64,000 nucleotides of DNA from Phycisphaeraceae bacterium (GCA_020851735.1 JADZCD010000059.1:1-64000); one strand, 5' to 3'. Positions 11,467 through 37,752 are shown, counted from the first letter of the stretch. Numbers and translations: made by a program. Notes: generated by a model from the sequence alone, not told the origin.

Positions 11467-11474
11467 TCGCGAAA

Positions 11475-11506
11475 TGCCGAGCAGTCGCTTAACCAACTGC
11501 TCGGCA
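11475..11506 (+). repeat. Perfect 11-bp hairpin after the gene at 10231
   Basis: Arms TGCCGAGCAGT (11475-11485) and ACTGCTCGGCA (11496-11506) with a 10-nt loop and no T run. It lies between the stop codon and the terminator and could protect the transcript 3' end. Confidence 0.6.
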
Positions 11507-11531
11507 AATAGATATCCATCGAATCGTTTCC

Positions 11532-11561
11532 AAGCCCCGGCAATGTATTGCCGGGGCTTTT
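11532..11561 (+). terminator. Rho-independent terminator
   Basis: Perfect 13-bp stem AAGCCCCGGCAAT (11532-11544) and ATTGCCGGGGCTT (11547-11559), then a short T run. Confidence 0.85.
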
Positions 11562-11619
11562 CGTTGGAGAACTTGCATGGGATACCGTGACAACAGGTCA
11601 TACGGATTGCGGTAGTCTC

Positions 11620-11674
11620 GCAGGCGAAAGACCGCCTGCTCACCCGGCCGGCGGAGCGGCCGGGCTTTGCTTTT
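11620..11674. repeat. Double hairpin element
   Basis: Two hairpins in series: GCAGGCG (11620-11626) with CGCCTGC (11633-11639), then CCCGGCCG (11643-11650) with CGGCCGGG (11657-11664), followed by CTTTGCTTTT. It looks like a dispersed extragenic element and may also act as a terminator. Confidence 0.55.
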
Positions 11675-12009
11675 CACGCCTGCGGTATTTTCATAGTGCG
11701 TATAATTCGACGACAGCCGTGCAGATGCAATTGTAAATGTTATCTGCTTTGACTAAAGCACCTATCTTAATTCGTTCAGAAAAAGGCAAATAGTCAAGAA
11801 TTTGCAGTTTTTCATTGCATTCCATAATCACCAGCAATATCCTTTCCATAAAGGTCAAACTGCTGCCATAGAGGATACTTTTGGTGCTTCTATTGTCGCC
11901 ATGTGATAAGGAATAATATCGCGGTGCGCGAAAGGCTTGATTGACGAGATCGAGCAGAGTTTTTTTGTTCCGCCGTAATGGTTTTACTTAATATTTGGAG
12001 GGCTTTCTT
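11675..12009 (+). other. AT-rich leader before the gene at 12010
   Basis: About 335 nt of clearly AT-rich sequence with no credible gene; it probably contains the promoter. The ribosome binding site TTGGAGGG at 11995-12002 fixes the start at 12010. Confidence 0.4.
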
Positions 12010-13161
12010 ATGCTGTCTGGAAAAGTGTGTATCTGCTTGTTGACCTTGGGATTTGCCCCGGCGGCCTGGGGCGCACTTTCGGGGAACGTGATCGGCGGCG
12101 GCGATTTTGAGGGAAGCGGAGCGGCACTGGAAAACATTATTAAGTTGCAGGATTCACCATTGACGCCGGAGGAGGTTACGGCGGGCACTGATCCTGTGCG
12201 GGCGTGGCAGTTCCACCCGGCATATGACCTGGGGAAATGGATCGGGGCGTGGGGCATTTCCAATATTTCCGATCCGCGTGCGCCGGGCTCAGCGAACACG
12301 ACGATCAACCGCTCGACGGTGCAGCGTGACGGCAATCCGACGGGGATCCTGGAAGGGGTGGCCTTCCGTTCCCATGCGGCGCAGATCATCGCGGCCCCGG
12401 CCAACCAGGTGGCGGGCACGGCCACGATTGACTTTGACTTCTGGTTCAATCAGTGGGAAGCGGTGCCGCTGGACGCGGACAGTATTTTCCACGTTTGGAT
12501 CGGCGGGTTCAATGAGGCATCCCTGCCCTCCTGGGAAGACCGCGCGGGCCCGATCTGGGGCGGCGATCAGGCGGCCTTGACGGCGATGGGGGCCACGCAT
12601 TTGTGGACCAGCCCGGACTGGAACACGTGGGGATGGACAGGCATCGGCTCCGAAGAGACGGACATCGGTTCCCAGGGCATGCAATGGCATACGCTGTCGG
12701 CGTCGAATCCCGATCGCACGACGTTCGAAATCACCACGCCGTTCGACTACTACTACATCTCGATCTGGCTGACGGTTTACAGCGAGCCGCACCCGTATTT
12801 CTGGCTCCAAGGGGGAATCGCGGCGGACACCGTGGCGGTGGCGATTGACAACATCGATATGCGGCTGCCGGTCGGGCCGTCGTTTATTCCGGGCGACTTC
12901 AACGGCGACGGCGCGGTGACGTTATCGGACATCAATCCGTTCAAGCAGGCTCTGACGGACGTCAACGCTTGGCAGGCGCAGTTCCCCGAAGTGGTTCTTG
13001 AAGACGTGGATCCCAACGGAGACGGCGTGATCACGTTATCGGACATCAATCCGTTCAAAGCGTTATTGACCGGCGGCAACGGCGCGGTGATTCCCGAACC
13101 GGCGACATTGAGTCTTCTGGCTGTAGGTGCGATGGCTGCGTTCCGAAGGAATCGTGCGTAA
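12010..13161 (+). CDS. PEP-CTERM/dockerin-type exported protein, paralogue 5
   Basis: 383 aa. Signal peptide about 1-22 (ending PAAWGA). The body of about 270 residues shares PEEVTAGTDPVRAW, FHPAYDLGKWIGAWG and YSEPHPYFWLQGG with the proteins at 868 and 2587, but is shorter. Two dockerin-like loops (GDFNGDGAVTLSDIN, DPNGDGVITLSDIN) and an IPEPA tail with a hydrophobic segment follow. The final basic cluster is FRRNRA rather than the triple arginine of the others. The ATG at 12010 is chosen because GGAGGG lies 7 nt upstream. Probably monocistronic. Confidence 0.88.
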   Translation: MLSGKVCICLLTLGFAPAAWGALSGNVIGGGDFEGSGAALENIIKLQDSPLTPEEVTAGTDPVRAWQFHPAYDLGKWIGAWGISNISDPRAPGSANTTINRSTVQRDGNPTGILEGVAFRSHAAQIIAAPANQVAGTATIDFDFWFNQWEAVPLDADSIFHVWIGGFNEASLPSWEDRAGPIWGGDQAALTAMGATHLWTSPDWNTWGWTGIGSEETDIGSQGMQWHTLSASNPDRTTFEITTPFDYYYISIWLTVYSEPHPYFWLQGGIAADTVAVAIDNIDMRLPVGPSFIPGDFNGDGAVTLSDINPFKQALTDVNAWQAQFPEVVLEDVDPNGDGVITLSDINPFKALLTGGNGAVIPEPATLSLLAVGAMAAFRRNRA

Positions 13162-13181
13162 GAATCGTTAGACTAGCATAC

Positions 13182-13253
13182 AATAAGCGACAAATTCGCT
13201 TATTTTCCTAAAAAAAAGCCACTTGTTGCGTAATGCATCAAGTGGTTTTTTGT
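13182..13253 (+). terminator. Hairpin plus Rho-independent terminator
   Basis: First an A/T-rich hairpin (AATAAGCGA 13182-13190, TCGCTTATT 13196-13204). Then a second stem CCACTTG (13219-13225) with CAAGTGG (13239-13245) is followed by TTTTTTGTTTT. They end the gene at 12010. Confidence 0.8.
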
Positions 13254-13497
13254 TTTAATGCGCATTTTCAGAGGCCATTAGTCCTTTGATGTACTTGAAT
13301 CGAAAGTGTGTATTCCAGCAGCATTTAATCATTGAATTTGTGGATAAGTCGTGGTAGCTTTGGCGTAGGACGAAACTGTTTCTTTTTTGCAGATGACTTG
13401 GCGGCTCAGATAATAGTTCATCTTTGTCGCGAAGTTGGTTTTTAAGTGTTACCCAGGAAGACGCGTATCGTTCAACCAATCATTGGAGGGCATTTAC
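13254..13497 (+). other. AT-rich leader before paralogue 6
   Basis: No gene seen. The ribosome binding site GGAGGG at 13485-13490 lies 7 nt before the ATG at 13498. No promoter could be fixed by eye. Confidence 0.4.
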
Positions 13498-14754
13498 ATG
13501 TTCGGTCGTAAAGTTTGGGCTTTGTTACTGGCGGCAGGCTTCGCCCCGGCGGCGTGGGGCGCGCTTTCGTCAAACATCTTCAGCAGCGGCAGCAGCGCGT
13601 TTGAAGGCACGGGATTCGGCACGGGCTCGGAAGTGATTGAGCCGGTGATCAAGGTGAGCGCTTCGCCGTTGGATCAGGGCGAGACAAATCCGGTGCAGTC
13701 CTGGCAGTTCCACCCCAGCTATGACCTGGGCAAGTGGATCGGCACCTGGGCGGTCTCCTATTGGGATGACCCTCGGGCGGCTTATGCCCTGGGCAATGGC
13801 GTTCGTCCGCACAACCGTTCGACGGTGACCGTGGCCAGCCAGAGCACGGGCATCATGGAAGGCGTGTCCTTCCGCATGGGCGTGGGCACCATCATGCAGG
13901 CCCCGAGCAACATGGTGGCTGGTGCGGCCAAGCTGGATTTCGATTACTTCTTCCGTTATTGGGAAGGCAACCCCACGGCCGGCAGCTATGACCCTGCGAC
14001 CATGGATGCGACACCGCAGATTCTGCAGCTGGAAGTCTGGGGCATCATGGAAGCGGATCTGCCGGCGTATACGGATCGCTTCGGACCGACCAACGAAGAT
14101 CTCGCGTTGGCTGGCATGGGTTGGACCAAGCTGTACGATGCTCCCAACTTCAGCTCCCAGCAGCACGGCAAGTGGGAAGCGGGCACGCCGATCGACGGGC
14201 CGTTCGCGATGGGTCTGCCCACGGACACCCCCACCGCTTCGGTGTGGAAGACGCTGTCCGACGGCGTGACGGTGTACAGCGGCAGCAAGGCCAGCCCCAC
14301 CACCACGACGGTCGACGGCACGTTCAACATCGCCCAAGCGTACGATTACCTGTATGTGTATGCTTCGTTGGTGACCTACTCGGAATCACATATGAACTTC
14401 TGGATGCTCGGCGGTGCGCCGTCCAGTCAGTTGTCGGTGGCCATCGACAACGTCACGCTACAGGTTTCGGTCGGGCCGAGCTTCATCCCCGGCGACTTCA
14501 ACGGCGACGGCGCGGTGACCTTGTCGGACATCAACCCGTTCAAGCTGGCGTTGACGGACGTGGCGGCTTGGCAGGCGCAGTTCCCCGAAGTGATTCTGGA
14601 AGATGTTGACCCCAACGGTGACGGCGTGATCACGCTGTCGGACATCAACCCCTTCAAGGCGTTGTTGACCGGCGGCAGCGGCGCGGAAGTTCCCGAGCCG
14701 GCGAGCTTGAGCTTGCTGGTGGTGGGCGCGCTGGCGCTGGCCCGGCGTCGGTAA
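13498..14754 (+). CDS. PEP-CTERM/dockerin-type exported protein, paralogue 6
   Basis: 418 aa, near-duplicate of the protein at 868. Long identical blocks include FFRYWEGNPTAGSYDP, MDATPQILQLEVWGIMEAD and FAMGLPTDTP. Signal peptide about 1-22 (ending PAAWGA, as in paralogue 5), body about 320 residues, two dockerin-like loops and a VPEPA tail ending ARRR. An earlier in-frame ATG at 13435 is rejected in favour of 13498, which has GGAGGG 7 nt upstream and begins a proper signal peptide. It is the last member of the tandem family. Confidence 0.9.
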   Translation: MFGRKVWALLLAAGFAPAAWGALSSNIFSSGSSAFEGTGFGTGSEVIEPVIKVSASPLDQGETNPVQSWQFHPSYDLGKWIGTWAVSYWDDPRAAYALGNGVRPHNRSTVTVASQSTGIMEGVSFRMGVGTIMQAPSNMVAGAAKLDFDYFFRYWEGNPTAGSYDPATMDATPQILQLEVWGIMEADLPAYTDRFGPTNEDLALAGMGWTKLYDAPNFSSQQHGKWEAGTPIDGPFAMGLPTDTPTASVWKTLSDGVTVYSGSKASPTTTTVDGTFNIAQAYDYLYVYASLVTYSESHMNFWMLGGAPSSQLSVAIDNVTLQVSVGPSFIPGDFNGDGAVTLSDINPFKLALTDVAAWQAQFPEVILEDVDPNGDGVITLSDINPFKALLTGGSGAEVPEPASLSLLVVGALALARRR

Positions 14755-14888: not shown

Positions 14889-15971
14889 TTAATAGCCTAT
14901 GTGACATTGCCGGCAGAGCTGGCCTTGGTCGTTGGGGATGACCAGCAGTTGTCTGTCATCGCTGTAGGGGTTGTGGCAGGATGCGCAGCTGACGCGCTTG
15001 TCAAAGAGGGTGATGCGACGGTCCAGCTCTTGGGGTCGCGCCAGGCGGCGGCGGGCGGGGCGGTTTTGATTTGATCCGCCCATTTCCACGCCTACGGGAT
15101 GAGACTGGCCGATGCGGGGTCCGGCGGTGCCGTCGTGGCAACCAAGACAGGCCAGGGAGACGGCATCCAGCGAGCCGCGACGTCGGCTGGCAAGCCCGGA
15201 GGAGCGGTCGGCAAGGTCCCAGGAGGAGAAGGCGTTGGAGCTGGGGGCGTGGCCCAGGTCTGATCCTTTGGCCCAGCGCAGGTGGGCGCGTCCGACGGCG
15301 CCGGCGTGGGCGGCGGAGCGCTTGCGGGGAGCCTGATCGTGGCACTGGGCGCAAAAGAGCGGGCCGGGGCCTGGGCTGCGCAACATGGCGGGTGGAGCTG
15401 TGTCCCGCAGGTGGTTTTGGGCGGTGCCCGGCAAATGGCAGGTCTGGCAGGAGAGCTTGCCGTTGTCCAAAGGCAGGGAGGGTGGAACGGACATCGAAGG
15501 AACGATGCCGACGGGGTGAGAGAAGGCGGGGTCGGGGCGGTGGCAACCCTGGCAGTCGGGGGAACTCGACGCGGAGCCTTGGTGACCCTTTGAACTGGTC
15601 CCGGACCAGGGGGCTGGTGTCTGGTCCAGATCCAGGTCCATTCGTTCGAGGCTGGACAGGGTGGCCCATGGGGCGTCGTCAGCAAGGGCGGACGCATCCG
15701 GGGGCATTGATGCCGGGAGGATTTCATCCGGGGGAGACAAATCGGGGGATGACCGTTCCGGGAGTGGGGATGAGAGCACGTCGGGGGGCGAGGAAGGGAC
15801 AGCGGAGGCATCGCTGGGCGCTGCGTTTTCAGCAGGTGCGGCGACGGCTGCGCGCACGGCCAAGCTGAGGCCCAGCGCAATCAACAGCAAGGATATTGAA
15901 AAATCCGCAAGCAGACGCAGGCGTCGGCTTGATGGTCCAGACCAACCGGTTGAGCGCAGAAACAGACCCAA
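14889..15971 (-). CDS. Hexaheme cytochrome c family protein
   Basis: 360 aa with six CXXCH haem c sites (CQGCH, CQTCH, CAQCH, CLGCH, CASCH, CRQCH), the last five residues from the C-terminus. An N-terminal hydrophobic segment (about 20-45) ending AVAAPAE is a signal peptide or anchor. A Pro/Ser/Asp-rich linker (about 45-125), with SSPP/PDEI-like repeats encoded by TCCGGGGG-type DNA, precedes the haem domain. Haem spacing with SHPVG segments between sites resembles doubled-CXXCH cytochromes. It is divergent from the tetraheme gene at 16574. Likely periplasmic or extracellular electron carrier; redox partner unknown. Confidence 0.85.
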   Translation of the reverse strand: MGLFLRSTGWSGPSSRRLRLLADFSISLLLIALGLSLAVRAAVAAPAENAAPSDASAVPSSPPDVLSSPLPERSSPDLSPPDEILPASMPPDASALADDAPWATLSSLERMDLDLDQTPAPWSGTSSKGHQGSASSSPDCQGCHRPDPAFSHPVGIVPSMSVPPSLPLDNGKLSCQTCHLPGTAQNHLRDTAPPAMLRSPGPGPLFCAQCHDQAPRKRSAAHAGAVGRAHLRWAKGSDLGHAPSSNAFSSWDLADRSSGLASRRRGSLDAVSLACLGCHDGTAGPRIGQSHPVGVEMGGSNQNRPARRRLARPQELDRRITLFDKRVSCASCHNPYSDDRQLLVIPNDQGQLCRQCHIGY

Positions 15972-16235
15972 GGTTTTCTCCCCTGACCTGTGGCGTATCG
16001 GCTGATGCTCAGGGCCACTTCCGGGGGAAAAAGGAACTGGGCTGCATTCTTTTTTGGCAAGGCAGGGAGTTTAGCGGTGGATCGGATCGGGGGGGATTTG
16101 CGGGCGTTCTCCAAGGCCTGGGAGGGGATATGGGCCGGCATTCCCAATATCGAGAGAACGTCGGCGGAGACGGGCTTTGGGAGGGCGTTTGGAGTTCAAG
16201 AGGCGGAATAACACGATTCCGGGTTTTTCTAAGGC
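15972..16235. other. Intergenic region between divergent cytochrome genes
   Basis: Part of a 602-nt gap between the hexaheme (minus) and tetraheme (plus) genes. No reading frame here has a credible start and product. It presumably holds the minus-strand promoter, which I could not fix. Confidence 0.4.
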
Positions 16236-16251
16236 AGGTATCGGCCTTGCA
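16236..16251 (+). promoter_or_regulatory. Weak sigma-54-like promoter
   Basis: AGGTATC-N4-TTGCA has the GG and GC pairs at the exact -24/-12 spacing and a full TTGCA, but the -24 box is degenerate. If real, transcription would start near 16262 and give a leader of about 310 nt before the tetraheme gene. Confidence 0.35.
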
Positions 16252-16261
16252 TTGAAAGTAG

Positions 16262-16573
16262 GCGTAGAGACTGCATTTAGGTTTATTTCCGTTTTGATCT
16301 CGCCCGGAGGTCAGCCGTGAGGGCGGGGTGAAATCAAAAGCCATGGTCAGCCAGAAGCATCGCAACGAATCTGGAAAGTGAGGTAAAGCCAAAGGGCGCC
16401 CCGGACACCACGACAGCCAAAGGAGTGCAGGGCTGGGAGATGGGGAAAGAAGCAGAAGAAGTCTTCGAGGCGAGCCACTGTGCTCGGGGCGGCTGCGGGA
16501 GAAACCCAAGAAACAACCAACAGCAGCTTCCGGGCGGAAAACCAAGCAACCCACGATGTATCTGGAGAAGACC
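16262..16573 (+). other. Possible long structured 5' leader of the tetraheme gene
   Basis: About 310 nt without a credible gene, rich in short GC-rich complementary segments, leading to GGAG (16564-16567) and the ATG at 16574. I tried to fit a cyclic-dinucleotide (GEMM) riboswitch because such elements control cytochrome genes in Geobacter, but the conserved core is not present. Confidence 0.3.
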
Positions 16574-17188
16574 ATGAGACGCATTTTGACCGGACTGTTG
16601 ATCGTGGCGGTGTCGGCACTCTGGAGCGTAACGGCCCAGGCTTCGCACTCCGACCATGGATGTAAGAACTGCCACGTGCCTCACAAGGCGCTGGCTGAGA
16701 ACGAAGCGGACGGCATCTGGGGCGTTCCGTTGTACAGCCCCGCGCAGATCACCGACGGCCTGCCGACCTTCGAACTTTACAGCAGCCACACGCTCACGGC
16801 GACGGTGAGCCAGCCGGACGGCCCCAGCAAGCTCTGCTTAGGCTGCCACGACGGCACTTACATTGCGTTCAGCTTCATCGGCCACAACCGGGTGTTCGCC
16901 AGCGACCGCGCGGCCAACGGCGGCATGGCTTTAAAGTCATCGCACCCGGTATCGTTTGTGTACGACACGGCGTTGGCCACGGAAGACGGCGATCTGAAGG
17001 ATCCCGCCACGGCGTCGGCCAACAACGGCTCAGGACGCACGATTGCCCAGGACCTGCTGGACAGCCACAGCAAGATGCAATGCTCCTCGTGCCATGACGT
17101 GCACGCCTCGGGCATCGGCGAAGAACTGCTGCGTTGGGATATTTCCCAAGGCGATCAGAACATGTGCCGTACCTGCCACAGCAAGTAA
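16574..17188 (+). CDS. Small tetraheme cytochrome c, OmcE-like
   Basis: 204 aa with a signal peptide (about 1-24, ending AQAS) and four CXXCH sites (CKNCH, CLGCH, CSSCH, CRTCH). The order of landmarks is CKNCHVPH, YSSHTL, KLCLGCHDGT, SHPVSFVYD, CSSCHDVH, CRTCHSK at the very C-terminus. From memory this matches the Geobacter four-haem filament cytochrome OmcE; no alignment was run. OmcE polymerises into extracellular haem wires, so this protein is a candidate filament subunit. ATG 16574 is preferred over 16556 because GGAG lies 6 nt upstream and the peptide then begins MRR. Followed by a strong terminator, so probably monocistronic. Confidence 0.85.
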   Translation: MRRILTGLLIVAVSALWSVTAQASHSDHGCKNCHVPHKALAENEADGIWGVPLYSPAQITDGLPTFELYSSHTLTATVSQPDGPSKLCLGCHDGTYIAFSFIGHNRVFASDRAANGGMALKSSHPVSFVYDTALATEDGDLKDPATASANNGSGRTIAQDLLDSHSKMQCSSCHDVHASGIGEELLRWDISQGDQNMCRTCHSK

Positions 17189-17227
17189 GAGCTGTTGACG
17201 GCAGAATAGATTTCATTGCCACCATCA

Positions 17228-17269
17228 GGGAGGCGACGTGGATTTATACGTCGCTTCCCGCTTTTTTTT
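17228..17269 (+). terminator. Rho-independent terminator
   Basis: Stem GGGAGGCGACG (17228-17238) pairing with CGTCGCTTCCC (17249-17259), one mismatch, then a T8 run. It ends the tetraheme gene. Confidence 0.9.
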
Positions 17270-17385
17270 GGGGCGTGCGATGGGGAAGAAGGCAGACAGG
17301 GGAGAGCTGAAAGGAGACAGGGGGGATTTAGGGGCTGGTCGCTTGGGGGGCGAATCAACACGCGCGGGGCTGTTGGCGGTTTGAT

Positions 17386-17537
17386 CCGGCCCTGAAGGGC
17401 CCGGCTTGGAGGCCCGAATCGGGGAGGCGGCGGGATAGGTCGGTCGATGGGGGTGATCCCGGGAGGAAGACTTTGCGGGGGATATTTTCCGGGGGGAATA
17501 TCTTCCGGGGAGCCCAGGGATTTCTTCCCTGGGCTTT
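17386..17537. repeat. Dispersed hairpin repeats between convergent genes
   Basis: 17386-17409 repeats the GGCC-rich palindrome seen at 5581. 17512-17534 repeats exactly the GCCCAGGGA/TCCCTGGGC hairpin of 5700-5722. Between them (17455-17511) lies a degenerate run of TTCCGGGG units. No gene in 17270-17592. Confidence 0.7.
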
Positions 17538-17592
17538 AGAGAGAGAGAACATGACCGCAAGGATTTTGCCGCGGGGAAAGCGGCGGGCGGGT

Positions 17593-18747
17593 TTAGGGGG
17601 TGGTTGGTTGGGTTGCGGCGGGTTGGGTGGTCTGGACGGGGGGTAAGTCGGAGGGGGCGGTGGCGGGCGGCTGGCCCTTGCGATGGCCAAAGGCGTAGAC
17701 GCCGACTTTGTGTTCGCCGAACTGATTGGCGACCAGCAGAAGGTACTGGGGTGTAAAGCCGGGGTCGATGTAGGACTGGAAGGCGGGGATGCTGGTCTGG
17801 TCGATGGCTACGCCGGCGGGCAGGCCCATGCTCTCGGGCCCGGTGGTGACGCCGCCGAAGTACATCAGGAGGCGGCCGTCGGGAGCGAACATCTGGACCT
17901 GCTCCCACTGCGAATCGGCGACGTAAACTCGGCCCTGCGGATCAATAATGATGCCCTTGGGACGGGCGAAATAGCCGGGGCGATCGCCGGGCTCGCCGAT
18001 GGTCCGCACCAGCTTGCCCTGGGGCGAGAAGACCTTAACCAGCTGCTGGTCGGTATCGGTGACATAGATCAGGCCGTCGGGGCCCACGGCAAGGTTGGTC
18101 GGCAGTTTCAGCTGGTCGGGCCCGCTGCCCTTGCTGGAGATGGTTTTCTGCAATTCGCCGGATCGGGACCAGACTTCGATTCGACCGTTGTCCACGTCGG
18201 CCACGTAGAGGTTGCCTTGGCGGTCCACGGCCAGGCTGATCGGAGCGCATCGCTTGGCGTCGCCTAAGGTTTTTACCAGGCGATCCTGGGCATTGAATTC
18301 GTAGACCAGGCGATTGCCGGTGTCGCAGACGAACTTGGTTCCATCGGGCAAAAGGGTGATGTTGACCGGGTTTTTCATGAGCCCGGAGGCTCCCAGCTCG
18401 CTGTAGGTCTTGGTGGGCATGTCGATGACCCGGACTTTGCGGTTGGCCAGGTCGCAGATGTAGATCCGGCTGTTCTGCATGGCCAGGCCGTAGGGGTTGC
18501 CGATGGGCCCAATGACGTCCTTTTCGCCGCCGACGACGAACTGGGAGAAAGACGAGCCCTTGCCGATGAGCGCCTGAGCGTCGTTAAAGCTCATCAGGAA
18601 TTGCAGGCGAGGCTCATCGGGGGCGGGGGGATAAAAAACCGTGGCTGATTTTTGCGTTTTGCCTGGGCCCGCGCAGCCGGCGACAAGGAGAACGAGTGAC
18701 GCGGCCAGGGTCGGCCAGCGAAAGCGGTGGAATGGTGTGGTGGGCAT
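17593..18747 (-). CDS. NHL-repeat beta-propeller lipoprotein
   Basis: 384 aa. The signal peptide has a lipobox (LLVAGC, about residue 22), suggesting a lipid-anchored exported protein. The rest is a series of NHL-type strands (NPYGLAMQNSRIYICD, NLYVADVDNGRIEVW, GLIYVTDTDQQLVKVF, GRVYVADSQWEQVQMF) consistent with a six-bladed propeller. It ends in a Pro/Thr/Gln-rich tail. Start: ATG complement at 18745-18747 with AAGGA upstream. A paralogue is encoded at 22632. NHL proteins accompany multiheme cytochrome clusters in metal-reducing bacteria, so a scaffolding or assembly role is plausible but inferred. Confidence 0.85.
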   Translation of the reverse strand: MPTTPFHRFRWPTLAASLVLLVAGCAGPGKTQKSATVFYPPAPDEPRLQFLMSFNDAQALIGKGSSFSQFVVGGEKDVIGPIGNPYGLAMQNSRIYICDLANRKVRVIDMPTKTYSELGASGLMKNPVNITLLPDGTKFVCDTGNRLVYEFNAQDRLVKTLGDAKRCAPISLAVDRQGNLYVADVDNGRIEVWSRSGELQKTISSKGSGPDQLKLPTNLAVGPDGLIYVTDTDQQLVKVFSPQGKLVRTIGEPGDRPGYFARPKGIIIDPQGRVYVADSQWEQVQMFAPDGRLLMYFGGVTTGPESMGLPAGVAIDQTSIPAFQSYIDPGFTPQYLLLVANQFGEHKVGVYAFGHRKGQPPATAPSDLPPVQTTQPAATQPTTP

Positions 18748-18970
18748 AGGGTAGGTCCTTCGGCCAGCGGATATGGACAGAAGTCGAGTATCAAACACCA
18801 TACCAGAAGGCGAAGGGATTGGGGGTTGAGGGTTGGGGGATGAAGATTTGTGTTTCAAAGTGAAAAAGAGATGTTCTTGGGAGTGCATGGCGGGGGATAA
18901 GTGATGGCGGGTATCGGAAATAACGGGGCAGGGCCATAATTGCGGCAATCTTTTTCTCTTATCGTGATTG

Positions 18971-18986
18971 GGGCACGTGTTTTGCC
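18971..18986 (+). promoter_or_regulatory. Sigma-54-type promoter of the conduit operon
   Basis: GGGCACG-N4-TTGC at the exact -24/-12 spacing matches the consensus TGGCACG-N4-TTGC at 10 of 11 positions. The start site would lie near 18997, just before the 10-haem gene. Sigma-54 itself and an activator are not in the window. Confidence 0.6.
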
Positions 18987-19014
18987 GAAAAGCCTTTAGG
19001 AGCGCATCCAGGGA

Positions 19015-20607
19015 ATGGCTGAGGCAAGACCGATAGATCCACGCGGTTACCGGACAATGGGCTTTAGGCGCGGGCGAAAAGTCCTGGTCTTCGGGTGCGT
19101 TTGCGGGTGCGTTTTGAGCTTGCTGGTCGGATGCAGTCCCGAAAAGAAATATCGGGTGCTGTCGTTTTTCTTTGACGGTGTGCCCGTGCCTCCGGGCATG
19201 GAAGAGGCCCAGGCGCAGACGCAACCGGTGGTCGGGCCATGGGGCATCAAGATGGACCCGAATGATCCGCGGGCGGCGGAGTTTGTGCGCGCGGCGGCGG
19301 AGGCTAATGAGCCCACGCAACAACCGACAACCGCGGAAGAGCCAAAAATCGAATATCTGCACGCGCCTTACCGCGATCGCTTGTGCATCGAATGCCACGC
19401 GGGATCGGACTCGTACCAGGCGCCCAAGGCGGGGGCGGAAGTGTGCGCCCAGTGCCACGCCACGCAGAGCAAGACGGAAGTCTCCGACTGGGTGCACGGC
19501 CCGGTGAACTCGGGCGATTGCCTGCAATGCCACTTGCCGCATAAATCCAACTATCGTTCGCTTTTGACGATGGATCAGCCGGCGCTCTGCTTTACCTGCC
19601 ACGACCGGGCGGGCGTGCTGGAGCAGGCGTACCACGAACAAGCCTTGGAAGGACTGTGCACACGCTGTCACGACCCGCACTCGGCGGGCAATCGGCTGCT
19701 GCTGGCGGACTCACGCAGCTACCGGCTGCGGCGGTTCAATGCGGACCAGACTTACTCCGGACATGCGTCGTGGAATAAGGACGACTGCGCACGCTGCCAC
19801 CTGGTTCAGCAAGGCAACGTGCTGATCGAGAACATCGATAACGCGTGCTTAAGCTGCCACCAAAAGGTCGTTGACGCCATCCCCCCCGGAAGCACCCCCG
19901 CCCCCGGAAGCCCCGGAAGTGAAAACGAGACTCGCGCTGGCATCGGAAGTGAAACAGAGAATGCAGGGGGACCTGCGGTCCGCCCGCTAAGCAGCGTGGA
20001 TGCGGTGGCGGCGACAGCTCGGGCGGTGGCGGCGACTTATCCGGCGACTTTGCCTGCGACGCAACCGACCACGGCAAGCGGTGACTGGGCGAATCTGCCG
20101 GCGGGGCCGTCGTGGCATCAGGCGATCCGCAAGGCACGCTGCACGCAATGCCATACGCCGCATAAATCGGTTCGGCCACACTTGATCAAGCCCGCGGCGG
20201 AAGGACTGTGCGTGGATTGCCACAAGCTCGAGGAATTGCCGCAGCCGCCACATCCGAAAGTGACGCGCGTGGATTGCCTGCTCTGCCATCACGGACATCA
20301 ATCAGAACGCGCCAAGCTGCTGCGGGCGGGCATTCGCGTGGAATCCATCGCCGCCGCCCCCGCCCCCGGAAGTGTCCCCGGAAGTGTCCCCGGAAGTGAA
20401 ACTGAAAAGGCAAGGGGACCTTCGGTCCGCCCGCTAAGCACCACCGCTCCCGGAAGCTCCCCCGGAAGCGTCCCCGGAAGTGTCGCCACTCCTGAAAGTT
20501 TCCCTGCCCACGGAAGCAGCCCCCCCACCACTGCCGCGGCCACGAGTCCCACCACGGCCAAGAGTGAAACGGCGCCGGCGGTGGAACAGCTGGGAGGCGA
20601 TCCGTGA
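19015..20607 (+). CDS. Decaheme cytochrome c lipoprotein
   Basis: 530 aa with ten CXXCH sites (CIECH, CAQCH, CLQCH, CFTCH, CTRCH, CARCH, CLSCH, CTQCH, CVDCH, CLLCH), many in doubled-CXXCH style with CHxPH. The N-terminus has a hydrophobic segment with lipobox (LLVGC, about residue 41). Two low-complexity linkers (about 285-350 and 445-525) are encoded largely by CCCCGGAAGT repeats and two palindromic elements. The last haem lies before the second linker. The next gene starts inside the stop codon (GTGA), so it is translationally coupled to the beta-barrel. Likely the cytochrome of an outer-membrane conduit. The start could also be 19057; 19015 has AGGAG 12 nt upstream. Confidence 0.85.
   Translation: MAEARPIDPRGYRTMGFRRGRKVLVFGCVCGCVLSLLVGCSPEKKYRVLSFFFDGVPVPPGMEEAQAQTQPVVGPWGIKMDPNDPRAAEFVRAAAEANEPTQQPTTAEEPKIEYLHAPYRDRLCIECHAGSDSYQAPKAGAEVCAQCHATQSKTEVSDWVHGPVNSGDCLQCHLPHKSNYRSLLTMDQPALCFTCHDRAGVLEQAYHEQALEGLCTRCHDPHSAGNRLLLADSRSYRLRRFNADQTYSGHASWNKDDCARCHLVQQGNVLIENIDNACLSCHQKVVDAIPPGSTPAPGSPGSENETRAGIGSETENAGGPAVRPLSSVDAVAATARAVAATYPATLPATQPTTASGDWANLPAGPSWHQAIRKARCTQCHTPHKSVRPHLIKPAAEGLCVDCHKLEELPQPPHPKVTRVDCLLCHHGHQSERAKLLRAGIRVESIAAAPAPGSVPGSVPGSETEKARGPSVRPLSTTAPGSSPGSVPGSVATPESFPAHGSSPPTTAAATSPTTAKSETAPAVEQLGGDP
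19886..19946 (+). repeat. CCCCGGAAGT-type repeat cluster, in frame
   Basis: Several CCCCCGGAAG(C/T) units encode PGS-rich linker sequence (STPAPGSPGSEN) in the decaheme protein. Similar units are scattered across the window. Confidence 0.75.
19969..19992 (+). repeat. Palindromic element P1, copy A (in frame)
   Basis: GGACC-TGC-GGTCC hairpin followed by GCCCGCTAAGC. It encodes GPAVRPLS in the decaheme protein. Confidence 0.8.
20355..20525 (+). repeat. CCCCGGAAGT-type repeat cluster, in frame
   Basis: Repeated GTCCCCGGAAGT units before and after palindromic element copy B. They encode the (PGSV)n tail of the decaheme protein. Confidence 0.8.
20416..20439 (+). repeat. Palindromic element P1, copy B (in frame)
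   Basis: GGACC-TTC-GGTCC hairpin followed by GCCCGCTAAGC. It encodes GPSVRPLS in the same reading frame as copy A. Confidence 0.8.
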
Positions 20608-22619
20608 GGCACACGCGATCGCTGGCAATGGCGGGCGCAGGGATGTTTTTGTTTTTCCTGGCGGAGGCGGCGGCGGCGCAAGGCCGGAAGGAGGCGCCGA
20701 TCCAGTCGTTTCGGATCATCGACTTCGGGGCGGATCTGTTTTCGGAAAACGAAATGCGGACGCGGCGGGAAACACGCAGCTCCGGGGGAACCACCACCGA
20801 AACGCAGATGATCTTTCAGCAGGGGGTGGATCTGAAGTCACGTGGGTATGTCTATCACCCCAACTTAGTTGACTGGAACGCGACGTTGCGCTTAGGGGCC
20901 AACGAGCAGATGATCGACGTCAACGGCCGGAACAACGATTCGACCGGTTCGCTCTTAGGCTATGACCTGTCGGCGTTGATCCTGCAGGAAAAGCCGATCT
21001 CCTTTGACACCTTCGCGTCGTCGTCACAGAGCATTCAGGATCGGAATTTCGCGCGCCTGGTGGAAGTCAAGCGCGAACGCCAGGGCATCGAAATGTTCAC
21101 CAAGGGCGATTACCCCATGCTCTTCCACTACGACCACGCGACGCTGGAGGAGACGGGCGACCTGCGCGACATGGAGGAAGAGACGCATCTTTTCCGCTTC
21201 GGGGTCAGCACGGAAGAAGACGAAGACTTCTACAACAACTTAAGCTACGAGCACGAGGAGACCGACTCCACGAGCACGTTTCACCCGCCCGGCGGCGGGG
21301 CGGACACGGTGGACAGTTTGCCGATCACGCGGGACGACTTGAATTACACCAACCGCTGGATTTTCGGCCAGGGCGATCACGAGAAAATCGTCACCGGGCG
21401 GGCCCGGGCGATGCAGCGGGAGGGCTTCTTCCCCAACACGGTGCTGGACTTTGACCAGCGTCTGGATTGGGAGCATTCCGACACGCTGGCGAGCTTCTAC
21501 GGGGTGCACGGCAGCTACGACGAGACCGAGACGCAGACCGACCAGACGATCGGCGGGGAAGCGGGCGTGACCAAGAAGCTCTACGACAGCCTGGAGCTGA
21601 CGGGCAGAACGTTCATGGAGTATCGGGACTTCGGCACGGGCTCGGAAAAGGAATACGGAGGTTCGGGGCTGGGGCAATACCGCAAGGAAACGCCGATCGG
21701 CAAGTATCTGTCGTCCCTAAGCGCGGGACTGCGGCTGCAGGAGGAAGAATCCAGCGGGGATCAGAGGCTGGTGCGCGACGAGCCGGTGACGCTGGTGGGG
21801 CTGACGGCGACGCAGCTGAGCAGGCCCAACGTGGTGGCGGGGAGCGTGACGGTGACTAATCTGGCCATGACGGTCACGTACGTGGAGGGCACGGACTATA
21901 CGCTATCCACGTTGGGGGCTTTTACGGAAATCACCCGTCTGGGCGGCGGGGGCATTGCCGCGGGTGAGACGGTGCTGGTCAGCTACATCACCACGGCGCC
22001 GCGGAACGCGGCATACACCACCACGGACTTTGCCTGGACGCATCGCCTGGAGCTTAAGGATCTGCCGCTGGCGTTCCTGGCGGAATATCGCCTGACGGAA
22101 GATCATCTGATCAACGGCGAGGACCCGGGCAACCTGGATTCGCAGGCGATTCTGCTGGGCGGCGTGGAGCTGACGTTGTGGAAGATCCTGACCACCTACG
22201 AACACGAGATCCGGGATCAGAATCTTTCCCCGCCGACGATCACCGATCGTCTGCGCAGCACCTATCGGCAGGCGGTGGCCCGGGACGTGGATCTGTCGTT
22301 AGGGGCGCATGCGGAATACACGCAGTATCTGGAAGCCGAGCGCTTTAATCTGCAGGAAGGGCGGGACACGATGCAGACGATCGGGGGCAACGCGGCCCTG
22401 ACCACGCGCATTAATCGCTATACGCTGCTGCGCTTCACCGGCGACGTCAACGACATGCAGGGACGGGACAACGGCATGCTGGCGCAGATGGGGGCGGCCC
22501 TGGAATGGCGGCTGCGGGATCTGTCGGTGTCGCTGACCTATCGCCACGAGATATTCGAGCAGGAAGATCGCCAGGGCGAGGCGGATATGATCATGCTCAA
22601 CCTGCACCGGCGGTTTTAA
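20604..22619 (+). CDS. Outer-membrane beta-barrel protein (putative porin of a cytochrome conduit)
   Basis: 671 aa. A signal peptide (about 1-27, ending AEAAAAQG) is followed by alternating polar and hydrophobic stretches typical of transmembrane beta-strands. The chain ends in phenylalanine (LHRRF), as outer-membrane barrels usually do. The start is GTG overlapping the previous stop; an ATG at 20628 is an alternative but gives a poorer signal peptide. It sits between a decaheme lipoprotein and an NHL lipoprotein, an arrangement that recalls porin-cytochrome complexes moving electrons across the outer membrane. I saw no sequence signature tying it to the MtrB or OmbB families. Confidence 0.78.
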   Translation: MRHTRSLAMAGAGMFLFFLAEAAAAQGRKEAPIQSFRIIDFGADLFSENEMRTRRETRSSGGTTTETQMIFQQGVDLKSRGYVYHPNLVDWNATLRLGANEQMIDVNGRNNDSTGSLLGYDLSALILQEKPISFDTFASSSQSIQDRNFARLVEVKRERQGIEMFTKGDYPMLFHYDHATLEETGDLRDMEEETHLFRFGVSTEEDEDFYNNLSYEHEETDSTSTFHPPGGGADTVDSLPITRDDLNYTNRWIFGQGDHEKIVTGRARAMQREGFFPNTVLDFDQRLDWEHSDTLASFYGVHGSYDETETQTDQTIGGEAGVTKKLYDSLELTGRTFMEYRDFGTGSEKEYGGSGLGQYRKETPIGKYLSSLSAGLRLQEEESSGDQRLVRDEPVTLVGLTATQLSRPNVVAGSVTVTNLAMTVTYVEGTDYTLSTLGAFTEITRLGGGGIAAGETVLVSYITTAPRNAAYTTTDFAWTHRLELKDLPLAFLAEYRLTEDHLINGEDPGNLDSQAILLGGVELTLWKILTTYEHEIRDQNLSPPTITDRLRSTYRQAVARDVDLSLGAHAEYTQYLEAERFNLQEGRDTMQTIGGNAALTTRINRYTLLRFTGDVNDMQGRDNGMLAQMGAALEWRLRDLSVSLTYRHEIFEQEDRQGEADMIMLNLHRRF

Positions 22620-22631
22620 AGGATCCAGGCT

Positions 22632-23792
22632 ATGGGAATGATCCAACGATCTTCAAAACGATTGCGCCCCGCAGGGACCAGACCTCCGGAATTATGCGGA
22701 GATATCCGATCCGAAGACACGGCGATCTGCGATCGCCCGCTAAACCTTTTAGCCGCCATTTTGTTTGCGATGATGTTCATGGGGTGGGGATGTGCTGGTT
22801 CCAAGCAGGGGGCGGCGACGCGGCCTGCCGAGCGGCTGGCGGTGTGGCCCGGGCCGCCGGCGGCGGCGCGGATCGCGCTGGTGGACATTCAGGATGGGAC
22901 GACCAAACCCAAGTCGCAATCGTTCTGGGATCGGATCGGGTCGGGACTGGTCGGGGCCAGGCGGCAGGCGATGGTGCGTCCGGTGGGCGTGGCGGTGGCG
23001 GAAGAGCGCTGGCTGTACGTGACGGATCAGGAATTACAGGCGATCCACGTGATCGACATGCCCAAGCGATCCTGGCGGCTGATCGCGCGGGTGGGAGACA
23101 GCTATCTGGTTTCGCCAGTGGGTCTGGCGGCGTGCGGGGAGAATATCGCGGTTTCCGACAGCGTGCTCAAGAAGGTGTTTATCCTGACCCGCAAAGGCAA
23201 GCTGGTGCGGACAATCGAGAAGCCCGGCGGCTTCGGCCGGCCTACGGGCATGGCGTTTGATGCCAACGCCAAGGCGCTTTACGTGGTGGACACCACGGCG
23301 AACGAAATATGCGCTTTTGATATGCAGGGCACGCTGCTGAGGCGGTTCGGCACATCCGGGCTGGACCCGGTGCAGTTTAATTATCCCACGCACGTCTGGG
23401 TGGACGGGGCGGGCAAGCTGTACGTGACGGATTCGCTGAATTTCCGGTTGCAGATTCTCACGGCTGAGGGGCAATTTGTCGGGCAGATCGGGCAGATCGG
23501 CGACGCCAGCGGGTACATGGCGGTGCCCAAGGGGATCGCGGTGGACGGCTTAGGGCACATTTACGTGGTGGACTCGTATTTTTCAGCGGTGCAGATTTTT
23601 GATCAGGCGGGGCGATTTTTGTTGAGCCTGGGCGGGCCGGGAAGCGAGCTGGGACAGTTTGAGGTGCCCACGGGCTTGACGATGGATCAGCATAACCGTT
23701 TGTATGTGTGTGACACCTTCAACGCGCGGGTGCAAGTTTTCCAGTATGTCGGGGACACCGACCATGAAGAAACCCCAACGACTGCTCCTTAA
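22632..23792 (+). CDS. NHL-repeat beta-propeller lipoprotein, second copy
   Basis: 386 aa. The signal segment LLAAILFAMMFMGWGC ends in a lipobox cysteine at about residue 55, unusually far in. The extra N-terminal stretch includes palindromic element P1 copy C, which encodes AICDRPLN. Propeller strands follow (WLYVTDQELQAIHVID, ALYVVDTTANEICAF, KLYVTDSLNFRLQIL, HIYVVDSYFSAVQIF, RLYVCDTFNARVQVF). Start at 22632, 12 nt after the barrel stop. It overlaps the start of the next gene by 29 nt, so it is operonic. Paralogue of the protein at 17593-18747. Confidence 0.82.
   Translation: MGMIQRSSKRLRPAGTRPPELCGDIRSEDTAICDRPLNLLAAILFAMMFMGWGCAGSKQGAATRPAERLAVWPGPPAAARIALVDIQDGTTKPKSQSFWDRIGSGLVGARRQAMVRPVGVAVAEERWLYVTDQELQAIHVIDMPKRSWRLIARVGDSYLVSPVGLAACGENIAVSDSVLKKVFILTRKGKLVRTIEKPGGFGRPTGMAFDANAKALYVVDTTANEICAFDMQGTLLRRFGTSGLDPVQFNYPTHVWVDGAGKLYVTDSLNFRLQILTAEGQFVGQIGQIGDASGYMAVPKGIAVDGLGHIYVVDSYFSAVQIFDQAGRFLLSLGGPGSELGQFEVPTGLTMDQHNRLYVCDTFNARVQVFQYVGDTDHEETPTTAP
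22721..22745 (+). repeat. Palindromic element P1, copy C (in frame)
   Basis: GGCGATC-TGC-GATCGCC hairpin followed by CGCTAAAC. It lies in the extended N-terminus of the NHL lipoprotein and is read in the same frame as copies A and B. Confidence 0.85.
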
Positions 23793-31408: not shown

Positions 31409-31409
31409 G

Positions 31410-33647
31410 CTAGATCACTCCCAGGCCGGCGAGGATGATCAGGGCGACGAGGGTGGTGCCGACGGTCATGGCGGCGATGCCGGCCAGCACGGCGACTTTG
31501 CGATACCAGGCGGGGGCGGGTTGGACGCGCAGGCTCTCGAGCTGGCCGGTGGCGACCAGGCGGGCGTACTCGTCGGGGCGCTCGTGTTTGAGTTCGGCTT
31601 CCGGCAGGCGGCCGGTGAACATGACATCGTCGACGGGGAATTTTTCCAGGCGCAGATGAGCGTTGAAGAAGTGAATGGTGAAGATAAAGCCCACGGCCAG
31701 GAGGGCTTCATAGCCATGAACGATCATGGCGACGTTAAAAGCCCAGCCGGGGAGGAAGAGAGCGAAGAACTTGGGGAACCACAGGAGCAGGCCGGACCCG
31801 CCGATGATGAAGGTTCCGCCGACCTCGGCGATATAGTCGAATTTTTCCCAGTAGGTCCAGCGGTCAAACCCAGGCTTGCGGCCGCCCTTAAAGAACCAGC
31901 GGAACATGCCGATGCAATCGCGCAAATCGCGGGGCATGGGCAAGAGGGTGTTGGGGCCAAACAGCCAGTCGCGGATGGGCCGGCGGTGCGCGCGAAGCTT
32001 CCGCCACAAGCCGCGCAGATGAGCGATGAGGTTGGCGATGAGGATCACGGCCAGGAAACGGTGGATCAGGCCCGCGGCTTCGGGGCCGCCCATGAGGCTG
32101 ACCATAAAGCGTGCCCAGCCGTGATCGGAAAACAAGAGGGGCAGACCGGTGATGGTCAGGCCGAAGAAGGTGACGACGACCAGGGCGTGGTTGATGCGAT
32201 CCAAGCGGGAAAAGCGCTGGACGGCGTGGGGATTGGCGACGTGGCGAGGCTCGGGCCCGTGTTTGCGGCGTTCGATCCAGGAGCGTATGAACCAGAGGAT
32301 GCAGTGGAGCCCGAAGAATCCGAAGGCGAAGGACATCATGACCACGAAATAGAGCCAGACGGCGTGGAGGAGGGGGTAATTGTGCCCGTCGCGGTAATCG
32401 GCATGGGCCTGGAAGAGGGCGAATTTAGCGTCGGCGCCGGGGTGGCACTGGCGGCAAACTTCCACGCGGTGATCGGCAAACAGACGGGAGCGGGGATTGG
32501 CGATGGGGAGGATGTCGTGGGCGCCGTGGCAATCGCTGCAGCGGGCAGCGCGGGCGAAGCCCAATTGGGTCACCTGGCCGTGGTAACTTTCGCGATAGGT
32601 CTTGTAGAAGGAGCGGTGTCCGCCGGGGCGCGGGCGGTCATGGCATTGCGCGCACTCGCCGACGATGTCGAGCATGAAGCGCGGGGTGGAGGCGCGGCTG
32701 ATAGCGTGGGAAGTGTGGCAGTCCGAACAAACGGGCGCTTCCTTGCTGCCTTGCGCGAGCTTCTGGCCATGGATGCTCTGGAGATAGACTTCGGCCACGC
32801 CGGTATGGCAGCGCCCGCAGGTCTGGGGCACGGCATGGCGGCTGATGGAGGATTGCGGATCGGAGGCGGGAAGGATGACGTGGCTGCCGTGGCAATCCAC
32901 GCAGGTGGCGGCGACGACCAGTCCGGCCTGGGAAATCGCGCGGCCGTGGACGCTGTCCATGTAGGTCTGCACGCGGATTTGGTCGCTGACGCCATCGGGG
33001 GCAACGGTGGTGTGCTGGGCGTGGCAATCGCCGCAGACTTTGACGACGTTTAGGGGGAAGATGCGGGACTGGCGATCGTGTTTGCCGCGGATGTCGTGAG
33101 TGCCGTGGCAATCGGCGCAATCCGGGGCCTGGGGGTTGCCCTTGGCGCGAGCCTGGGCGTGGAAACCTTGACGGTCGTCCGCGCCGGCGGCGGCGTGGCA
33201 AGCATCACTGCAGTTGACCTTTTTCAGCACCGCGGCATGCGGAAGATTGTTGGCGTCGGCATGGCACTGGACGCAGGTGAGGGTGCCGTGGGCGGTGTCG
33301 GCCAAGGGATTGGCGCCGATGAACAGACCCGGACGGGGGGAATCGGCAGACGCGGCGACTTGTGTTTGCCCGCTGGAGGGCGTGGCCTTAGAGGTGGAAG
33401 GAGCCATTTCGGGGGAGGGGGCAGTTCCGGGGGGGGCGATCATGGAGAGGCGATCGCGCAGAGGAAGTTCGGAGATGTGTGTTTGGCCGTGGCAGTTCAG
33501 GCAGCGGCGATTGGGGCCGATCACTTCGGCGGGAAGTGTCTTGGCGTCCTGAGCAAAGGCGGGCATGACAAGCCACAGGGCGGCCAGAAAGGTCAGGAAG
33601 GCTACCGGTTTTTTCTGCCCGCTTGTGTGCTTAGCCCTGATCTTCAT
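31410..33647 (-). CDS. CbcL-like multiheme cytochrome c/cytochrome b fusion
   Basis: 745 aa. Signal peptide about 1-33 (ending MPAFAQD). The N-terminal half has 10 CXXCH sites and one CX3CH (CSDACH). The C-terminal half (about 395-745) is a membrane cytochrome b-like domain with several helices and candidate haem-b histidines (GLHCILWF, RINHALVVVTFFGLTITG, LIHRFLAVILI, MIVHGYEALL, IFTIHFFNAH). This resembles Geobacter CbcL, an inner-membrane quinol oxidase used in metal respiration. ATG complement at 33645-33647 is chosen since it gives a proper signal peptide; longer in-frame starts exist. First gene of the minus operon 33647-25544. Confidence 0.85.
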   Translation of the reverse strand: MKIRAKHTSGQKKPVAFLTFLAALWLVMPAFAQDAKTLPAEVIGPNRRCLNCHGQTHISELPLRDRLSMIAPPGTAPSPEMAPSTSKATPSSGQTQVAASADSPRPGLFIGANPLADTAHGTLTCVQCHADANNLPHAAVLKKVNCSDACHAAAGADDRQGFHAQARAKGNPQAPDCADCHGTHDIRGKHDRQSRIFPLNVVKVCGDCHAQHTTVAPDGVSDQIRVQTYMDSVHGRAISQAGLVVAATCVDCHGSHVILPASDPQSSISRHAVPQTCGRCHTGVAEVYLQSIHGQKLAQGSKEAPVCSDCHTSHAISRASTPRFMLDIVGECAQCHDRPRPGGHRSFYKTYRESYHGQVTQLGFARAARCSDCHGAHDILPIANPRSRLFADHRVEVCRQCHPGADAKFALFQAHADYRDGHNYPLLHAVWLYFVVMMSFAFGFFGLHCILWFIRSWIERRKHGPEPRHVANPHAVQRFSRLDRINHALVVVTFFGLTITGLPLLFSDHGWARFMVSLMGGPEAAGLIHRFLAVILIANLIAHLRGLWRKLRAHRRPIRDWLFGPNTLLPMPRDLRDCIGMFRWFFKGGRKPGFDRWTYWEKFDYIAEVGGTFIIGGSGLLLWFPKFFALFLPGWAFNVAMIVHGYEALLAVGFIFTIHFFNAHLRLEKFPVDDVMFTGRLPEAELKHERPDEYARLVATGQLESLRVQPAPAWYRKVAVLAGIAAMTVGTTLVALIILAGLGVI
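33354..33378 (-). repeat. Diverged palindromic element P1, copy G (in frame)
   Basis: GGCGACTTGTGTTTGCC followed by CGCTGG aligns with the P1 element with several substitutions that break the stem. It encodes SSGQTQVAAS in the CbcL-like protein, similar to SGRSQIAAS from copy E. Confidence 0.5.
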
Positions 33648-33911: not shown

Positions 33912-35360
33912 TCACCGGGCAGTCGTTCCCGCGATTGGGACAAACCGCCAGGTTGAAACAGGGATACGCAGGCGGAAACAGGCGCCCTGGTTGACCTGGC
34001 TATCCACTTCGATCTGGCCGTTGTGTTGACGCAGGATGCTGTAGCTGACCGCCAGGCCCAGGCCGGTGCCCTTGCCGACGGGCTTGGTGGTGAAAAAGGG
34101 ATCGAACAGCCGGCCTAAGTGTTCGGGGGCAATGCCGTGGCCGTTGTCTTCCACTTCGATCAGGCACTGGTTTTCCTGGCGCAGGGTGCGCATGGCCACG
34201 GCCGGTTCGGGGTTTTCCGCCACGGCGTCCATGGCGTTGAGCAGGAGATTGACCAGCACCTGCTCCATGGCGCGGCGTTGCATGTGGAGCTGGCCGGCCT
34301 GGGGGGACAGCTGGCGATTGATCTTCACCTTGCGGGCGCGGGGATCAAAGCGCACCAGGCGGAGGGATTCCTCGACTAATTCGTTGACGTCCACCATCTG
34401 CCAGCCGGTTTCGCCGGGGCGGGCGAAGGTGGTCAGCTGCTGGACGATTTCGCGGATGCGATCCACCTGCTGGCGGAGGGTGTCGATGGCGCCCGGGCGG
34501 GGCTGGGCGGGCTTGCGCTGCATCAGTTGCAGGAGGCTGTCCATGCTGGCCAGGGGGTTGGCGATTTCGTGAGCCACGCCGGCGGCCATCTGGCCCAAGG
34601 CGGCCATTTTTTCCTGCTGCATCATGGCCCGCTGCTGCTTGGCCAGGCGGCGGGACATGGCGCGGATCCGCTGATTCTGGCGCATCAGGCGGCGCTCGTG
34701 GCGGCGCAGGCTGCGGGTGATGTGATTGCTTAAGTGCACGGTGGCCAAAAGCAGGACCACCCAGGCGGCGAGGGCGACGGTTTCCTTGGGGTTGGCCGCA
34801 AGCAGGTCGGACCACCACAGGGCGGCCAAGACCATGACGGCGGCAGCCAAAGCGCCGGCATAGGCCATGAAACGAGGCAGAAGCAGACTGGCGAAGACCA
34901 TGTGCAAAACGAAAAAGCCCAAGAGCGGGCTGGCGACGCCGCCGGTCCATATCACGAGTAGAGTCAAGACGCCAAGGTCCAGGAGAATCTGCAGCCAGGC
35001 GAGGCCGACGGGGGGGAAGAAAGGGGAAGGATTTTTCGCAGGGGTAAGGGAAGAGTCTGCTTTGGGCCTATCCAAGCCAGGCGCTGAATCAGGCACACAG
35101 CACCCTTCGGGCTGCTGTGTGGCACCCGAGGAGGGGGGAGGGGCGGAGGGGGAGATAAGGCTGAGGATCAGGTTATAGAAAAGGATGAACGCGCCGAAGC
35201 CAGCCATGATCAAGTCATGGTCGTACCAGCGTTGCCAGAACCAGTCGGTCAATGAGCCGGCCACCACCGCCAAGCCCGCCAGCCAACGCAGGCGCAGCAG
35301 CCAGCGCAATTCGGATAGGAGAGGAGATGCTCGGTGTCTGGTCGCTTTATCCCGACTCAC
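33912..35360 (-). CDS. Membrane sensor histidine kinase
   Basis: 482 aa. Five or six N-terminal hydrophobic segments (about 20-215) form a membrane sensor. A DHp domain with the phospho-acceptor box GVAHEIANPLASM (about 268-280) follows. The ATPase domain has N-box NLLLNAMDAV, G1 box EDNGHGIAPE, the DPFFTTKPVGKGTGLGL segment and a final GACFRLRIP strand. Between the second and third hydrophobic segments a Pro/Ser-rich loop (about 72-115) contains a palindromic repeat in frame. No response regulator lies in the window. With the two upstream genes it may sense an anion or redox cue for the cytochrome operons. Confidence 0.88.
   Translation of the reverse strand: MSRDKATRHRASPLLSELRWLLRLRWLAGLAVVAGSLTDWFWQRWYDHDLIMAGFGAFILFYNLILSLISPSAPPPSSGATQQPEGCCVPDSAPGLDRPKADSSLTPAKNPSPFFPPVGLAWLQILLDLGVLTLLVIWTGGVASPLLGFFVLHMVFASLLLPRFMAYAGALAAAVMVLAALWWSDLLAANPKETVALAAWVVLLLATVHLSNHITRSLRRHERRLMRQNQRIRAMSRRLAKQQRAMMQQEKMAALGQMAAGVAHEIANPLASMDSLLQLMQRKPAQPRPGAIDTLRQQVDRIREIVQQLTTFARPGETGWQMVDVNELVEESLRLVRFDPRARKVKINRQLSPQAGQLHMQRRAMEQVLVNLLLNAMDAVAENPEPAVAMRTLRQENQCLIEVEDNGHGIAPEHLGRLFDPFFTTKPVGKGTGLGLAVSYSILRQHNGQIEVDSQVNQGACFRLRIPVSTWRFVPIAGTTAR
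35093..35122 (-). repeat. Palindromic element P3 (in frame)
   Basis: Arms CACACAGCA (35094-35102) and TGCTGTGTG (35113-35121) around CCCTTCGGGC. It encodes GATQQPEGCCVP in a loop of the histidine kinase. The same 9-bp arms form the hairpin at 48681-48708. Confidence 0.75.
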
Positions 35361-35425
35361 GGGCTGGCCCTTGGAGGTAAGAATTCCCGGCTAAACTGGC
35401 AAACAAATGAGGGAAGACGGTCAAA

Positions 35426-36454: not shown

Positions 36455-36458
36455 CGAA

Positions 36459-37481: not shown

Positions 37482-37710
37482 GGGCCTAGTAAGGGTACCG
37501 CTTTTTACCTTGATCCACATGGATAAAAGAAGCAATCGCCATACCCCCGGCCGTTGAAACGGCATCGGCAACGTCAAACCGATTGATTGAGCAACGATGC
37601 CGTGGAAAAACACCTTTGGGCAATCACCTGGGATCGAGTCCGAAGCCAAGCCATAAAACACGTATCTATCTTGACATATGTTATGCGGGAATAGCGCCTG
37701 GACTGTTGGC

Positions 37711-37727: not shown

Positions 37728-37752
37728 CGATAATCTACGGGAGGGAGCACCT

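Follow-up and report, generated by a model that had tools for sequence, protein, structure and literature searches.

We analysed a 64,000-nucleotide stretch of DNA (the window) from Phycisphaeraceae bacterium (GCA_020851735.1, JADZCD010000059.1:1-64000) and focused on positions 14889-33647, a multihaem cytochrome locus whose genes we lettered A-L. This locus very probably encodes an extracellular electron transfer (EET) conduit. Its candidate filament subunit, the secreted tetrahaem cytochrome B, belongs to the OmcE superfamily as judged from profile searches and a predicted fold. B is not an orthologue of Geobacter OmcE, representing instead a separate tetrahaem clade in sequence phylogeny, and we give it roughly an even chance of polymerising.

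Eight multihaem cytochrome open reading frames lie where an earlier reading of this DNA (the original prediction) had placed them, carrying 6, 4, 10, 11, 13, 13, 11 and 10 CX2CH motifs (78 in all). Addition of seven CX3CH/CX4CH sites brings the inventory to 85 haem sites in 19 kb, exactly the number originally claimed, against a chance expectation of 0.04-0.37 haem motif per shuffled protein. The odd-spaced sites entering the 12- and 15-haem counts are also present in relatives. The host genome spans 3.56 Mb at 94.8% completeness, and each of its 23 matches to a doubled CXXCH falls inside the locus.

B (16574-17188, + strand) is a 204-aa protein with a short N-terminal histidine arm. A single-sequence search of the PDB returned two credible matches, both near full length: 9yuq (E = 9.3e-10) and OmcE 7tfs (E = 6.5e-7). 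The B-family profile, built from 28 relatives, matched the same two entries over the full length (9yuq, 7.9e-31; OmcE, 1.9e-30), the next match being OmcS over a fragment (7e-7), followed by other cytochromes at E values of at least 2e-5. An AlphaFold2 model, computed without templates from an 88-sequence alignment of the window and fetched relative loci, reached a predicted local distance difference test (pLDDT) score of 73.8 and a predicted template-modelling (pTM) score of 0.73. Its only significant Foldseek match in the PDB was the OmcE nanowire 7tfs (E = 2.2e-4, probability 1.00, TM-score 0.50). Four CXXCH motifs and four distal histidines are common to B, OmcE, 9yuq and the N-terminal domain of G; in the B family these histidines lie in CxxCHxPH, HPV and CHDVH and before haem 1, in invariant or near-invariant columns. 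The OmcE landmarks that the original prediction had read in this protein are present, most of them as invariant family columns, and both profile and fold place B with OmcE rather than in an unrelated periplasmic cytochrome family. A partial literature search for '9YUQ' or 'OmcE-like' found no paper.

The 12-haem cytochrome G (23764-25467, + strand) contains an OmcE-like tetrahaem domain at residues ~25-212, and this complete domain is followed by eight further haem sites. With E = 1e-25 to OmcE, the domain stands nearer to OmcE than B does; over its first ~190 residues, G is by sequence comparison closer to OmcE than any other protein of the locus. The chain of B-type proteins ends two residues past the last haem histidine, whereas that of G continues beyond this point, suggesting that G could end a chain of subunits but not sit inside it. 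G is probably not a wire subunit; a role as the socket or adaptor joining a wire to the conduit is a serious possibility, which we place just short of even. In a spread sample of planctomycete genomes, G was present in 21 of 392.

To define the distribution of the gene set, we used an OmcE-led profile, which recovered 80 named loci, and scored a four-part set of tetrahaem, NHL, barrel and 12-haem genes within ~20 kb. The set was found in Planctomycetota (17/22 loci), Pseudomonadota (10/18), Bacteroidota (6/12), Thermodesulfobacteriota (3/7), Calditrichota (3/3), Verrucomicrobiota (2/2) and Nitrospirota (2/3), with one locus each in Gemmatimonadota, Chlorobiota and Ignavibacteriota; these counts are not frequencies, as sampling follows the query and several low values stem from contig ends. 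About 15 related planctomycete loci carry tetrahaem, NHL, 5-/10-haem lipoprotein, barrel, NHL and 12-haem genes, with gaps at contig ends. The order B-NHL-(5/9/10-haem)-barrel-NHL-G is conserved in many phyla, and in nearly all loci the F-type NHL gene immediately precedes G. An NHL gene also directly precedes the OmcE homologue in Geobacter/Desulfuromonadales loci (L053, L054, L059, L060 and L082), and the barrel family of E was not found in the Geobacter-type genomes tested, beyond one weak fragment. Window-type tetrahaem genes occur as tandem pairs or triplets in L036, L037, L038, L040 and L052, and one copy (L036:13607-14230) bears a fifth CXXCH before haem 1.

This gene set looks widespread and little described, extending over Planctomycetota and about nine other phyla, and not like a planctomycete oddity; with these loci, the OmcE superfamily is represented in over ten phyla. 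A description of the E-type cluster was not found in the literature searched, of which coverage was partial. We tentatively consider, as a possibility somewhat below even, a pan-phylum arrangement of wire and socket, in which superfamily tetrahaems of Planctomycetota, Bacteroidota, Calditrichota and others would polymerise, with G capping the wire and coupling it to a distinct barrel conduit.

The remaining genes include the proposed parts of a conduit. D (19015-20607, + strand; lipobox LLVGC) is a decahaem lipoprotein, pentahaem in most other loci; its 10 haem sites compare with 5 in most other phyla, and PGSVPGS-type linkers are repeated along the chain. E (20604-22619, + strand), a putative outer-membrane barrel, is conserved across phyla and shows a signal-like N-terminus, a C-terminus with a conserved R-x-F, and neither a Pfam match nor a PDB relative. 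Within the E family, one internal block (TDxxGxxxYxEGxDYxLxxxGxxTEIxR) is strongly conserved and may represent a soluble domain inserted into the barrel candidate. An NCBIfam phage tail-tube model matched the conserved internal beta-rich region of E at 37.8 bits (cut-off 60), and this assignment was rejected. C (17593-18747, - strand; lipobox LVAGC; Pfam NHL E = 3.7e-16) and F (22632-23792, + strand; lipobox MGWGC; E = 2.3e-22) are NHL beta-propeller lipoproteins. The 15-haem cytochrome I (26548-27999, - strand) is periplasmic and DmsE/MtrA-family-like, and J (27996-29777, - strand; lipobox VLSSC; 15 haems) is its paralogue; both match TIGR03508 over partial length and below the cut-off (144 and 153 bits, respectively, versus 192).

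K (29780-31408, - strand) is a NapC/NrfH-like cytochrome that has a membrane anchor and 12 haem sites, its N-terminal NapC/NirT domain matching Cytochrom_NNT (PF03264) at E = 3.5e-10 and 40.3 bits (cut-off 24.1). L (31410-33647, - strand) is a candidate CbcL-like fusion of 11 haem sites with a putative cytochrome-b-type membrane domain, and a putative quinol oxidiser. The b region matches formate dehydrogenase gamma (1.4e-9) and Ni_hydr_CYTB (3.8e-4), both under curated cut-offs. These quinol modules are adjacent in the window and likewise in related loci L048 and L050. Among the parts that the original prediction had named, the two NHL lipoproteins (by lipobox and Pfam match) and the NapC-like oxidiser hold. 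For its CbcL-like oxidiser, the haem sites and a cytochrome-b-like region are present, with the b-domain matches remaining sub-threshold, and for its outer-membrane barrel there is a 671-aa Pfam-less candidate, the barrel nature of which is putative. Its reading of the whole as an EET-type locus agrees with the barrel candidate, the surface-type lipoproteins, the match of B to OmcE and the linkage conserved across phyla. The same four features argue against a set of periplasmic respiratory cytochromes with no tie to extracellular transfer, which we regard as highly improbable, even though individual Pfam matches in the locus are generic (Cytochrome_C7, Paired_CXXCH).

From these parts we infer a topology and an order of electron flow. 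CbcL-like L and NapC-like K would oxidise quinols at the inner membrane, and I and J would carry electrons across the periplasm to an outer-membrane conduit formed by barrel E and haem lipoprotein D. The NHL lipoproteins C and F may help to assemble or anchor the surface parts. On the outside, G would take up the electrons, and secreted B would extend the path to a solid acceptor, most likely as a haem wire docked on the N-terminal domain of G. We lean slightly towards this complete chain, from quinol pool to surface with a B wire on G.

Several points weigh against this chain, most of them bearing on the wire. Phylogenetic analysis of OmcE-like domains revealed four sets, namely Geobacter OmcE with 9yuq (support 99/91), the 11-12-haem head domains (99/88), the cluster-borne tetrahaems, and a planctomycete subclade holding B (100/100) that groups with most of the cluster-borne tetrahaems (99/93). 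B therefore falls outside the OmcE clade in the trees; an approximately unbiased (AU) test (p = 0.21) does not reject a single clade uniting window-type proteins with OmcE, and their separation rests on the support values. A sequence difference agrees with the separation: the motif H[DN][FL]S lies 18-20 residues before haem 1 throughout the OmcE group (7/7), 19 residues before it in 74 of 79 12-haem proteins and 13-14 residues before it in most cluster tetrahaems. It is absent from the window-type B subfamily (0/17), in which a histidine always lies 4-5 residues before haem 1, at or beside the predicted mature N-terminus. OmcE filaments contain an interfacial haem with histidine ligands from two subunits (PMC12954529, PMC9473688); if the N-terminal histidine arm is this inter-subunit ligand, the joint between planctomycete B subunits must differ. 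The original idea of a planctomycete version of Geobacter OmcE is not supported, with B in a different clade and its ligand arm shortened. Furthermore, the TM-score of the B model to OmcE is only 0.50, and homology alone is no proof of a wire because G shares the OmcE-like domain. Beyond the wire, we infer, rather than predict, that E is a barrel, and the same holds for the side of the membrane on which D sits. Finally, the host genome encodes a haem-copper oxidase (COX1), implying that outward EET is not its sole respiration.

The short arm of the window-type subfamily, the position of the B clade apart from known wires and the presence of the same domain in single-chain G would also fit a monomeric or short-oligomer B, serving as terminal reductase or as adaptor to minerals or partners at the surface of the same conduit, with no long wire. 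We consider this alternative unlikely, as the two superfamily members with solved structures were deposited in wire or multi-copy entries (the OmcE nanowire, and 9yuq with 16 identical chains), and the tandem duplicates of B would fit an abundant structural subunit.

The COX1 oxidase also bears on the direction of flow. Flow could instead run inward, with Fe(II), minerals or a cathode supplying electrons to the quinone pool or oxidase, as proposed for the Uet system of Tenderia. Uet, the nearest named system, comes from cathode-oxidising Tenderiales and iron-oxidising Gallionella, which adds to the case for this route. Yet the locus itself contains a NapC-type and a candidate CbcL-type quinol oxidiser, and RuBisCO was not found in the 94.8% complete genome, making Calvin-cycle lithoautotrophy unlikely. 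We therefore favour outward flow and regard an inward path as improbable.

The locus is completed by two genes outside the proposed chain. A (14889-15971, - strand) is a hexahaem cytochrome with a signal peptide and six CXXCH motifs; its relatives, also found beside the cluster, carry 6-7 haems, including those in Nitrospirota and Desulfarculales loci. The C-terminal half of A shows OmcE-like landmarks (CLGCHDGT, SHPVG). H (25544-26551, - strand), an AhpC/TSA-type thioredoxin-like protein with TPR repeats, perhaps has a role in cytochrome biogenesis. Adjoining the cytochrome operon, a sensor module (33912-37661, - strand) comprises a histidine kinase, a HAMP/HisKA protein and a phosphonate-binding-like periplasmic protein. 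Parts of this module also occur beside the cluster in L041, L042, L046, L047 and L049, and this recurrence suggests co-regulation. The flanks further contain three tandem secreted paralogues (10231-14754, + strand), whose repeats (DFNGDGxxTLSDINPFK) are dockerin-like and whose C-termini resemble PEP-CTERM, and a radical SAM/SPASM protein (37678-39150, + strand) with a long His/Gly/Pro-rich low-complexity insert.

How a wire connects to the cell interior is poorly understood even in Geobacter (PMC10553843), and a conserved operon that encodes both an OmcE-type subunit and a larger protein sharing its domain provides a concrete candidate for such a joint, one that can be tested. A 2026 review describes OmcS, OmcZ and archaeal wire homologues in diverse species and does not list OmcE among them (PMC12954529). 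Metal cycling has been proposed for Phycisphaerae, in 2023 the first such proposal for non-anammox Planctomycetota (PMC10732223), and would gain a defined apparatus from this locus. General reports exist of undecahaem-centred porin-cytochrome complexes and of planctomycete metagenome-assembled genomes that encode porin-cytochrome complexes (PMC13264449).

Among known systems, OmcE (7TFS) and 9YUQ, the latter deposited as a 'putative multiheme cytochrome c', share full-length homology with B and with the N-terminal domain of G. OmcE is likewise secreted, has the same four CXXCH motifs and distal histidines as B, and in Geobacter-type genomes adjoins an NHL gene. B differs in its clade and in its histidine arm, 5 versus ~20 residues before haem 1, and no full homologue of E was found in the Geobacter-type genomes tested. 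MtrCAB/DmsE-type porin-cytochrome complexes also combine a barrel with a multihaem conduit, and I and J partly resemble the DmsE/MtrA family; in the window, however, these proteins have 15 haems and score under the family cut-off, and E is Pfam-less. In syntrophic sulphate reducers, the OetABI/OmcX cassette (PMC10553843), compared here by description only, similarly places a porin-cytochrome conduit beside proposed wire-forming cytochromes, but its wire candidates are OmcS-, OmcX- and Apc2a-type.

The closest parallel is Uet, which comprises the tetrahaem UetA, the peptidyl-prolyl isomerase (PPIase) UetB, the porin UetC, the trihaems UetDEG, the NHL proteins UetHI and the undecahaem UetJ, and is hosted by Tenderiales (Ca. 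Tenderia) and Gallionella (PMC10734462, PMC13386937). The window resembles it in its tetrahaem, two NHL proteins, porin candidate and an undeca-/dodecahaem protein with an OmcE-like head; in the Uet-layout locus L129, tetrahaem and undecahaem both carry the OmcE-like domain, as do B and G. However, the Uet layout includes a SurA/PpiC-type PPIase and C7 trihaems, neither of which is in the window, and the window has D, I/J, K and L. The L129 barrel showed no detectable homology to the E profile (E = 0.02). Two loci, L058 and L083, pair an E-type barrel with trihaems. Identity of the window cluster with Uet was dropped in view of the different barrel, PPIase and trihaems of L129. By sequence and gene content, the window type is a sister arrangement of Uet, a relative and not a member.

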